64,000 bases of DNA, taken from contig CALBWK010000016.1 in NCBI GenBank assembly GCA_937969415.1, positions 35,150-99,149 of the forward strand. Direction: 5' to 3'. The notes under the pieces were generated by a model that was not told where the DNA came from, searched no databases, and saw only the letters and a list, made by a program, of their open reading frames with translations. This DNA comes from an uncultured Saprospiraceae bacterium. Lineage in GTDB: Bacteria > Bacteroidota > Bacteroidia > Chitinophagales > Saprospiraceae. This document shows positions 52,899 through 61,411 of the stretch, one piece after another (position 1 is the first letter of the stretch; every line of letters begins with the position of its first letter). Both the position numbers and the translations under genes were made by a program.

Positions 52899-54302
52899 AT
52901 GAACGATTTGTTTGAACCTATGAACTCATCAATAATAAAAGTAATTGGTGTAGGTGGTGGCGGAAGTAATGCCGTTGGATATATGTACAAGCAAGGTATA
53001 GTCGGTGTTGACTTTGCTGTTTGTAATACGGATAAGCAAGCACTTGAGGCTAGCCCTGTAAATAATCGTGTACAACTAGGTATCGCCTCCACAGAAGGTC
53101 TAGGTGCGGGATCTATTCCTGAAGTCGGCAGACAGTCTTGTATAGAGTCTATCGATGACATAAGAGAGTTTTTGCAAAACGACACTAAGATGTTGTTTAT
53201 TACGGCAGGTATGGGTGGTGGAACTGGGACTGGTGCTGCGCCTATTATTGCTAAAGCAGCTAAAGAATTAGACATATTGACTGTTGCTATCGTTACAATG
53301 CCATTCAAGTTTGAAGGTACAAGACGTTCTGCGCAAGCAATTGATGGACTAGAAGAATTAAAAAAGAATGTAGATTCTCTTTTGGTCATTTCTAATGAGC
53401 GACTTAAGTCTATGTATACGGATCTTAGTATGAAAGCGGCTTTCGCTAAAGCTGATGATATACTCACTACAGCCGCAAAAGGTATCGCAGAGATTATTAC
53501 TGTACCTGGTTATATAAATGTTGATTTCCGTGACGTGAATACTGTAATGAAGTGCAGTGGTGTGGCATTAATGGGTTACGCAGAGGCAGAAGGAGAAGAT
53601 CGAGCTCTTACGGCTGTAAAGAATGCTATAGCTTCTCCACTTCTAGAAGATAATGATATACGTGGTGCTCAGCACATACTACTTAATATCAGTTCTGGAA
53701 GTAAGGAAATCACAATGGGTGAGATAAGTGATATTACAGAATATATTTCTGAAGAAGCGGGATATGGTACTGACCTTATCTGGGGTAACTGTGAAGATGA
53801 AAGCTTAGGTGATAAGCTTAGTGTGACGATTATAGCAACAGGTTTTGATAAGAAACCTGACTGTAAGCCAGAGAAGGTGGTTGTCAGTATAGATGATGAG
53901 TTTGCTGTATCTACAAACGAGGTTTTTGATCTGAAAGAGATAGCTGAAAGTCCAAATGCTAACGTTATAGAGTTTGATGACCTAGAACCAAGGGTAAGAA
54001 CTGCAAATACTGAATCTATCAATACAATAAGAAGAGAAGAACCTTTACCGCCAGAAGGCCGAATTATAAGAAGGGTAGTTAGAAGGGTACGAGCAGATGG
54101 TAAACCCTTGTCTAAGCCACTTGATAGTCCAAGAGATATCGCTGAGTTGGAAGATGTTCCAGCGTATAAAAGGAAGAATATCACATTAAACGATAGTAAA
54201 GAACTTAAGGATACAGCACAGTCAAAACTAAGTATCAATCTAGATGCTGAAGGGCCTATCGTACAGAGAAATAATTCTTTTTTCCATAATAACGTGGACT
54301 AA
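52899..54302 (+). CDS. ftsZ: Cell division protein FtsZ
   Basis: IKVIGVGGGGSNAV, FITAGMGGGTGTGAAPIIA, NVDFRDV. Confidence 0.97.
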   Translation: MNDLFEPMNSSIIKVIGVGGGGSNAVGYMYKQGIVGVDFAVCNTDKQALEASPVNNRVQLGIASTEGLGAGSIPEVGRQSCIESIDDIREFLQNDTKMLFITAGMGGGTGTGAAPIIAKAAKELDILTVAIVTMPFKFEGTRRSAQAIDGLEELKKNVDSLLVISNERLKSMYTDLSMKAAFAKADDILTTAAKGIAEIITVPGYINVDFRDVNTVMKCSGVALMGYAEAEGEDRALTAVKNAIASPLLEDNDIRGAQHILLNISSGSKEITMGEISDITEYISEEAGYGTDLIWGNCEDESLGDKLSVTIIATGFDKKPDCKPEKVVVSIDDEFAVSTNEVFDLKEIAESPNANVIEFDDLEPRVRTANTESINTIRREEPLPPEGRIIRRVVRRVRADGKPLSKPLDSPRDIAELEDVPAYKRKNITLNDSKELKDTAQSKLSINLDAEGPIVQRNNSFFHNNVD

Positions 54303-54330
54303 AGATGATTGACGACCGGAGTGCTTTAGA

Positions 54331-54516
54331 TGATAGAACCACGCTTGACATTTATCAAGCCATCAACTAAGGATTTCGTCTTTTTAAAGTCCTAGTTCTC
54401 AGAAGTGAGAATCTGGCAAATAATTCTTTTCTAACCCAATATTACTTTGGGTTTAAGAGATTGGTTTATTGATTGAGTTTATAGTCCCGCCTCTCCGGTG
54501 GGACTTTTTTATTGGA
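54331..54516 (+). ncRNA. Candidate structured RNA, copy 1 of a tandem pair, with own intrinsic terminator
   Basis: ATAGAACCA/TGGTTTAT closing helix, GCTTGA/TCAAGC, TTCTC/GAGAA, AACCCAA/TTGGGTT hairpins; terminator GTCCCGCCTCTCCGGTGGGACTTTTTT. Confidence 0.6.
54484..54516 (+). terminator. Intrinsic terminator of RNA element copy 1
   Basis: GTCCCGCC-TCTCC-GGTGGGAC followed by TTTTTT. Confidence 0.85.
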
Positions 54517-54610
54517 CATATGATAAAAAATCGAAATATATTGCTTAATATAGATTTTGACTTAATCAAACCTGAGCGCAGAGAGAAATAGTGATGAAGG
54601 TGTTGAGATC

Positions 54611-54798
54611 TTTGATAATAGAACCAAACCGCTTGACCTAAGTGTCGAGCCTATGGATTAAGGATTTCGTCTTTTTAAGTCCGGATTTTCTAAAGTGAAA
54701 ATCAGGTTTTAAACATTTTCAAATCCCGACACTCGTCGGGATCATAAGATTGGTTTATTGATTGAGTTGTCCCGTCTGGAGAGGCGGGACTTTTTTTT
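54611..54798 (+). ncRNA. Candidate structured RNA, copy 2 of a tandem pair, with own intrinsic terminator
   Basis: AATAGAACCAA/TTGGTTTATT, GCTTGA/TCGAGC, ATTTTC/GAAAAT, ATCCCGAC/GTCGGGAT; shared linker TAAGGATTTCGTCTTTTTAA; terminator GTCCCGTCTGGAGAGGCGGGACTTTTTTTT. Confidence 0.6.
54769..54798 (+). terminator. Intrinsic terminator of RNA element copy 2
   Basis: GTCCCGTC-TGGAGA-GGCGGGAC followed by TTTTTTTT. Confidence 0.88.
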
Positions 54799-54910
54799 GC
54801 CCTCTACTTACAAGAATCTCAACTATTGATGTATCATTGATGTAATTAGGAAACTACTGCTCAGGCTAACAACTGATACCTTAGTTTCTATATCAATCAA
54901 CCATTTGAAA

Positions 54911-56224
54911 ATGAATAATAAGTATACCAAAGCTGTCATTGTCGTTACCTCGCTTTTCTTTATGTGGGGTTTTATTACCGTATTAGTGGATTCATTAATA
55001 CCACGGTTAAAGGAAATTTTTGAATTAACTTTCTTTCAGGCTGGGCTAGTGCAGTTTGCTTTCTTTATTGCCTATGGGTTGATTTCAATTCCGGCAGGCT
55101 CACTATTGTCTAAGATTGGCTATAAAAAGGGTATGCTATTGGGCCTTGCTGCGATGGGTATAGGTTGCTTGTTATTTATACCTGCAGCATCGATGCGGAT
55201 GTTTCCCCTCTTTATGTTGGGTTACTTTGTATTAGCTGGCGGAATCACAGTATTACAAGTAGCGGCTAACCCATATGTATCTGTGTTGGGTCCTGAAAAG
55301 ACTGCTTCAAGTCGATTGATTTTGTCCCAAGCATTTAACTCATTAGGTACGGCTATAGCGCCAATAATAGGGGCTGTATACTTACTCAGTGACAATATCA
55401 AAACAAGTACCGAGATTAAGGCACTGGCAGAAGGGGATAAGTTAGCCTACTTTAGTGCAGAAGCTGCTGCGGTCAAGACACCTTTTGTTGTCCTAGCAGG
55501 TAGCTTGCTGTTGCTAGCAATGCTGATTGCTATATTTAAACTTCCTCAGATATTAGGTGAAAAGAATATAGAGGGTGGATATGCCAAGGCCAGGACAAAC
55601 CAGAAGCTGATGATGGGTGCCTTAGGTATTTTTGTTTATGTCGGTGCAGAGGTATCGATAGGTAGCTATTTGGTCAATTACTTCTTGGATATGAATCTGG
55701 CTGAAAGCATTAAGTCTAGCACCTCTATGAGCAGTCTTTCTTCGACATTGCTAAAGCAAGACTTAAGTGCCGTAGATAGTAAAGGTATCGTAGCTGCTTT
55801 TGTTACATTTTATTGGACAGGTGCTATGGTAGGTAGGTTTATCGGCTCATTGCTCACAAGAGTAATTGCTCCAGGTAAGGTATTGGCATTTTTTGGACTA
55901 GGTGCAATCTTAATGATTTGTCTGTCTATGACTACTACTGGATTTGTTTCTATGTGGAGTATTCTAGCGGTAGGTTTATTTAACTCTATAATGTTTCCTA
56001 CAATATTCACTATAGCGATAGAAGATCTAGGTGAGCTCAAGCCACAAGGGTCTGGAATCTTATGTACGGCCATAGCGGGCGGTGCTTTTATTCCTCCTAT
56101 GTATGGTTTCCTTACAGACAATGTCGGATTTAAAATGGCCTTTGTCTTAGTGATACTTTGTTATGCATACATACTGTATTATGGATGGAAACATCGAAAC
56201 CCTCAATACAATACAGCAACTTAA
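54911..56224 (+). CDS. FucP/GluP-type sugar MFS transporter
   Basis: LFFMWGFITVLVDSLIPRLKEIFELTFFQAGLVQFAFFIAYG; about 12 TM helices. Confidence 0.9.
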   Translation: MNNKYTKAVIVVTSLFFMWGFITVLVDSLIPRLKEIFELTFFQAGLVQFAFFIAYGLISIPAGSLLSKIGYKKGMLLGLAAMGIGCLLFIPAASMRMFPLFMLGYFVLAGGITVLQVAANPYVSVLGPEKTASSRLILSQAFNSLGTAIAPIIGAVYLLSDNIKTSTEIKALAEGDKLAYFSAEAAAVKTPFVVLAGSLLLLAMLIAIFKLPQILGEKNIEGGYAKARTNQKLMMGALGIFVYVGAEVSIGSYLVNYFLDMNLAESIKSSTSMSSLSSTLLKQDLSAVDSKGIVAAFVTFYWTGAMVGRFIGSLLTRVIAPGKVLAFFGLGAILMICLSMTTTGFVSMWSILAVGLFNSIMFPTIFTIAIEDLGELKPQGSGILCTAIAGGAFIPPMYGFLTDNVGFKMAFVLVILCYAYILYYGWKHRNPQYNTAT

Positions 56225-61337: not shown

Positions 61338-61411
61338 GGCCCTGTAGTTCAACTGGATAGAATATCAGATTTCGGCTCTGAGGGTTGGGGGTTCGAATCC
61401 TCCCAGGGTCA
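61338..61411 (+). tRNA. tRNA-Arg (anticodon UCG)
   Basis: Cloverleaf: acceptor GGCCCTG/CAGGGTC, anticodon arm TCAGA-TTTCGGC-TCTGA, T arm GGGGG-TTCGAAT-CCTCC; no encoded CCA. Confidence 0.93.

Follow-up and report, generated by a model that had tools for sequence, protein, structure and literature searches.

Comparison with related genomes indicates that two tandem units directly downstream of ftsZ, in the 64,000-nucleotide stretch of an uncultured Saprospiraceae genome analysed here (the window), are a functional RNA that has not been described previously. The conserved part of this RNA is a pair of linear motifs, M1 (GGATTTCGTCTTTTT) and M2 (GAGATTGGTTTATTG...), and not its multi-stem body. 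We prefer to read the units as a 3'-UTR module that is co-transcribed with ftsZ and recognized by a trans-acting partner that would set the fate of the ftsZ message, a reading to which we give about an even chance of being right.

The window contains a dcw-type cluster with the gene order murD-ftsW-murG-murC-ftsQ-ftsA-ftsZ, as read from its open reading frames; at the locus, Pfam confirmation covers ftsZ (Tubulin and FtsZ_C domains) and the downstream MFS gene, and the other cluster genes are named from their ORFs. The ftsZ gene, which ends the cluster and is the conserved neighbor of the element, occupies 52899-54302 of the + strand, and the MFS gene lies at 54905-56224. The gap between them holds the two units, each approximately 188 nt long, 72% identical to each other and both on the + strand: unit 1 at 54325-54512, through the end of its U-tract, and unit 2 at 54612-54799.

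Unit 1 has hairpin a (GCTTGA/TCAAGC; 54343-54360), a variable, genus-specific feature, followed by M1 (GGATTTCGTCTTTTT; 54371-54385) and by the covarying hairpin b (TTCTC-AGAAGT-GAGAA; 54396-54411), whose loop is RAWG-like. A CTTTTC block at 54426-54431, kept in most units, could pair with the GAGA of M2 to form the base of hairpin c (AACCCAA/TTGGGTT; 54433-54453), which is predicted by folding and is missing from some homologues. M2 (GATTGGTTTATTGATTGAGT; 54459-54478) then leads into an intrinsic terminator with its U-tract (54483-54512), identified by covariation and by terminator search. Unit 2 repeats this arrangement with hairpin a (GCTTGA/TCGAGC; 54631-54650), M1 (54662-54676), a hairpin b that is compensatory relative to unit 1 (ATTTTC/GAAAAT; 54685-54702), hairpin c (ATCCCGAC/GTCGGGAT; 54723-54742, present in the fold and in homologues), M2 (54748-54767), and a terminator with U-tract at 54769-54798, supported as in unit 1. 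Upstream of unit 2, an arm at 54560-54572 on the + strand (ACTTAATCAAACC) is a partial, weak complement of M2 (p 0.085), and similar arms precede about half of the units in the genus. Most units of the genus also have a YTGATAATAGARCC block ahead of them (54613-54625 of the window is an example), which may be a promoter-like element or may pair with M2 as the 5' side of a helix.

Both units fold more stably than expected, with z-scores of -4.77 for unit 1 and -3.77 for unit 2, and none of 200 dinucleotide shuffles was as good. The region contains two intrinsic terminators (54483-54505 and 54769-54790), where 0.5 would be expected. When 20 distinct units are aligned, the middle hairpin and the stem of the terminator covary: 11 of 12 pairs carry changes on both sides, the double-changed cells number 62, and 93.7% of cells are paired; structures slid along the alignment as controls reached at most 58% paired, and the covariation score was reached by 0 of 500 shuffles. 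A first-pass annotation, made from the letters alone, had placed two units with shared blocks between ftsZ and the MFS gene, had given each its own terminator and had seen compensatory changes between their stems. Alignment bears out its positions and shared blocks, the stem pairs are present, and the compensation extends across the 20 homologous units.

That annotation had also proposed a closing helix, ATA(G)AACCA/TGGTTTAT, bracketing each unit. The helix is present in both copies, but across units its 3' strand is invariant and its 5' strand is absent from several, and complementarity of M2 to the upstream region was only slightly above that of shuffles (mean z -0.71, 22 units), so that a long-range closing helix is weakly supported. 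Pairing between M1 and M2, as proposed by RNAalifold for minimal forms of the element, was set aside because every pair is invariant and G-U-rich and offers no covariation by which to judge it. M2 adjoins the terminator in every unit, and the terminator stem is not overlapped by M2.

A DNA search for homologues covering 61 relatives returned real homologues confined to the MAG's own genus; among the weak matches outside it, some were clearly due to chance (coding sequence and the flank of a tRNA, for example). The element lies directly 3' of ftsZ in 13 congeneric Saprospiraceae genomes, in two copies in ten of them and in one copy in three. G004, the only congener that lacks the element, has an incomplete assembly, and no FtsZ was found in it either. 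The genes downstream of the element differ between genomes, with no constant downstream gene. In five genomes (G002, G007, G010, G011 and G012) the two copies are closer to each other than to units of other genomes, a sign of recent duplication or gene conversion. The copies of G000/G001, G003, G005 and G008 are older, 71-77% identical (71-75% in G000, G005 and G008), with both motifs intact, and because such old, diverged copies each keep M1 and M2 exactly, both copies are under selection. Both are presumably transcribed.

The first 14 nt of M1 (GGATTTCGTCTTTT) and the 20 nt of M2 (GATTGGTTTATTGATTGAGT) are unchanged in all 23 genus units, and this absence of change contrasts with an FtsZ protein identity of mostly about 60-70% within the genus. 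Across the family, an M1 core (CGTCTTTT) and the GAGATTGGTTTAT portion of M2 are kept. The hairpins covary or disappear across homologues and the motifs stay constant, which implies that the motifs, rather than the exchangeable stems, are what gets read; a protein and other RNAs are the candidate readers.

To follow the element beyond the genus, we searched the family with two covariance models. The first (R1) matched 93 of 399 genomes at E<=1, and the second (R2) added further genera. Every ftsZ-form member whose context could be verified lies 3' of ftsZ, the exceptions being those where a contig end cuts off the context. A looser pattern tally, which tolerates up to 3 mismatches per motif and may therefore include a few spurious diverged units, gave 92 units at 61 distinct ftsZ loci (38 single, 16 double, 6 triple and 1 quadruple). 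In 24 of the 61 loci the first unit starts no more than 20 nt past the ftsZ stop codon, often 2-20 nt past it. The first-pass annotation had argued for a functional RNA over chance hairpins and had suggested a covariance-model search of Bacteroidota genomes; this search yielded homologues with covariation 3' of ftsZ, and their spread through the family, the controlled covariation and the constant position after ftsZ uphold the argument. The multi-stem architecture that it described is accurate for this genus and specific to it: outside the genus the element is reduced to about 62-95 nt, and the linear motifs are what persists. The minimal form consists of TTCGTCTTTTTCTGAGATTGGTTTATGG and a terminator, as at locus L312 (1742-2140, in genome G140), where four minimal copies follow ftsZ head to tail with a period of 115 nt.

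At several loci (L126, L132, L133, L155, L308, L309 and L323) the element often sits at a contig end, a pattern that tandem arrays would produce by breaking assemblies. Copy numbers are probably underestimated. Covariance-model and pattern searches of other families gave no convincing member; the weak model matches there are generic terminators, and membership outside Saprospiraceae was rejected. Exact M2 matches in other phyla fall mostly within coding frames, and none has a recognizable element around it. A mobile repeat was likewise rejected, since the MAG's own genome holds two copies only and no viral contig carries the element pattern.

Related modules occur at other genes. In several other Saprospiraceae genera, TTTTAGGTCGTCTTTTTTTTCATGAGATTATGATT(T)GTT followed by a terminator lies 3' of a surface-protein gene (loci L238-L243, L245, L248, L249, L305, L308 and L314); the gene upstream of most copies encodes a large surface protein, and the one upstream protein that we tested has DUF11, DUF7619 and Por_Secre_tail domains in Pfam. 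In the genus g135 (L329 in G226 and L331 in G148), a second copy of M2 (CATGAGATTGGTTTAT) with a terminator lies about 18 nt past the stop codon of a SPOR-domain protein gene. These cases show that the module can occur away from ftsZ, though its place is a 3' end in every case.

The first-pass annotation could match the element to no RNA class, and a search with Rfam 15 agrees: across the whole window the only match at threshold was a tRNA gene (61338-61411). The best sub-threshold scores at the units were anti-hemB (26.3 bits, gathering score 49.5) and GcvB (25.6 bits), and 12 homologous loci gave one weak match and none at threshold. GcvB, at 25.6 and 21.5 bits against a gathering score of 42, was rejected as an identity, and its scores and those of anti-hemB stem from a generic hairpin-terminator shape. 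An RNA motif called ftsZ-DE has a name that hints at a link with ftsZ; the Rfam 15 matches included no model named for ftsZ. A riboswitch or attenuator was rejected as well, because no aptamer-like fold is conserved outside the genus, the downstream gene is not constant and M2 stays clear of the terminator stem. The element does have the location of a 3'-UTR-derived sRNA, lying in a 3' UTR and ending at the gene's intrinsic terminator.

In a full-text literature search that took in few subscription papers, no account of an RNA located downstream of ftsZ in this group turned up. E. coli reportedly has a sponge RNA, FtsO, within ftsI, and it would resemble the present element as an RNA regulator from a division-gene transcript and differ from it in lying, by the same account, inside a coding sequence and in Gammaproteobacteria. 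The FopS/GibS RNAs of Bacteroides thetaiotaomicron are multicopy paralogous sRNAs with a constant linear block, one of them 3'-UTR-derived; most FopS genes are intergenic and have canonical promoters, and the genes, scattered through the genome, give RNAs of 65-70 nt that carry an R1/R1' seed and an RbpB-bound 41-nt motif and repress susC-type mRNAs (PMC11697453). Our element would likewise consist of short RNAs of Bacteroidota in several copies per genome around a constant linear block, a likeness in description, but its copies are in tandem 3' of ftsZ and have no promoter or target signal. In Rhodobacteraceae, UpsM is a single-copy sRNA produced from the dcw 5' leader by early termination (PMC5089854). 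UpsM and the Saprospiraceae element are both non-coding RNAs within a dcw transcript and restricted to one bacterial family, but UpsM derives from the 5' leader whereas the element follows ftsZ at the 3' end, in one to four copies. By analogy, the FopS cluster and UpsM are the nearest functional comparators, and neither shares both position and anatomy with the element.

In the preferred reading, ftsZ is the host transcript. The module, in the order M1, one or more exchangeable hairpins, M2 and an intrinsic terminator, would be transcribed from the ftsZ promoter or promoters, and transcription that reads through the first terminator would reach the second of the two tandem copies found here. 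M1 and M2, mostly unstructured, would flank a hairpin near the transcript's 3' end and share one trans-acting binding partner, most probably an RNA-binding protein, whose contact would determine the fate of the ftsZ message through 3'-end formation, protection from exonucleases or decay. The position 3' of ftsZ, invariable apart from contig ends, the constraint on both copies and the presence of modules at envelope- and division-type genes favor such a 3'-UTR role. On the other side, invariant blocks of 14-20 nt exceed typical protein sites and would also fit RNA-RNA pairing, and M2 is predicted to be partly paired in the long forms (unpaired probability 0.19-0.54). Efficient termination at copy 1, which would leave copy 2 poorly transcribed from ftsZ, sits uneasily with the conservation of copy 2.

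An sRNA pair was one of the two options that the first-pass annotation had offered, the other being a tandem cis-element. Tandem sRNA genes with their own promoters, adjoining ftsZ by happenstance, would account for a terminator in every unit and for the YTGATAATAGARCC block common upstream in the genus. That block is missing outside the genus, however, and the Bacteroidota-type -7 motif (TAnnTTTG), which would correspond to the canonical promoters of FopS, is not enriched in the 23 inter-copy spacers (1 observed, 1.2 in shuffles), some of which are only 42-57 nt long. In 24 of the 61 loci the first unit follows the stop codon so closely that a promoter would have to lie within the coding region, and these 2-20 nt distances together with the lack of promoter signal in the spacers make independent sRNA genes improbable and favor the 3'-UTR module. 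Chance hairpins or generic terminators of no function are the least probable account, to be entertained only as a very slim prospect: intrinsic terminators are common 3' of genes, and the weak matches in other families are of this kind, but the fold z-scores, the controlled covariation and the 14-nt and 20-nt motif sequences that never vary among the 23 units contradict it. A role for M1 and M2 as a nut-like or factor-binding site that tunes read-through of the adjacent terminator seems unlikely, if less so than independent genes. Tandem copies would then be serial gates that end the dcw operon and insulate downstream genes or couple them conditionally, in keeping with M2 standing right before the terminator in every unit, with copies multiplying along with their terminators and with downstream genes varying by genome; yet M2 lies outside the terminator stem, we saw no conserved alternative pairing, and no conserved downstream gene presents itself as the object of control.

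The main and serious rival is a trans-acting sRNA derived from the ftsZ 3' UTR, which we consider possible but clearly less probable than the reading that we prefer. Released by processing or from an internal promoter, it would pair through M1 and/or M2 near the start codons of other mRNAs and couple division-gene transcription to other genes, the tandem copies raising its dosage or diversifying its expression. The small size of the minimal forms, their terminator and their constant accessible motifs recall the FopS sRNAs (PMC11697453). The reverse complement of the core, CAATAAACCAATCTC-ATG-AAAAAGACG, resembles a translation start, and several pattern matches away from ftsZ are antisense to gene starts. 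In G006 a gene for a secreted protein is a possible antisense target, its start codon lying within 16 nt (L337, around 687-702) that are exactly complementary to M2. That gene has no orthologue in 11 congeners, however, and near-complete or whole-M2 antisense sites are not shared between genus genomes. In 0.8 Mb samples each of G080 and the MAG's own genome, with shuffled seeds and mid-CDS windows as controls, complementarity at gene starts showed no excess: at -12 kcal/mol, M2 matched 18 and 32 start regions, respectively, compared with 14.3 and 32.9 when the seeds were shuffled, and M1 fell below shuffles. Start-codon antisense as a global rule, hinted at by the pattern matches, is not supported by this controlled test. 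Conserved pairing of the element with the ftsZ coding region or start was not found either (mean z above 0). From sequence alone, we prefer the 3'-UTR module over the trans-acting sRNA.

To our knowledge, how Bacteroidota set FtsZ levels is poorly understood. A family-wide module at the 3' end of ftsZ, often multiplied together with its terminator, implies that the dcw operon ends in a control step as yet undescribed, one that would act on the ftsZ message or start from it, and the natural minimal versions of about 62-95 nt make its function testable with small deletions and reporters. More speculatively, and in our estimate doubtfully, the motifs plus terminator may be a 3'-UTR address tag on ftsZ and, in certain genera, on further messages for division or the envelope, such as those of the SPOR-domain gene and the type IX-secreted surface-protein gene, to be read by a lineage-specific RNA-binding protein that coordinates their abundance. 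If this is true, the tag would amount to a division regulon that acts post-transcriptionally through 3' ends.
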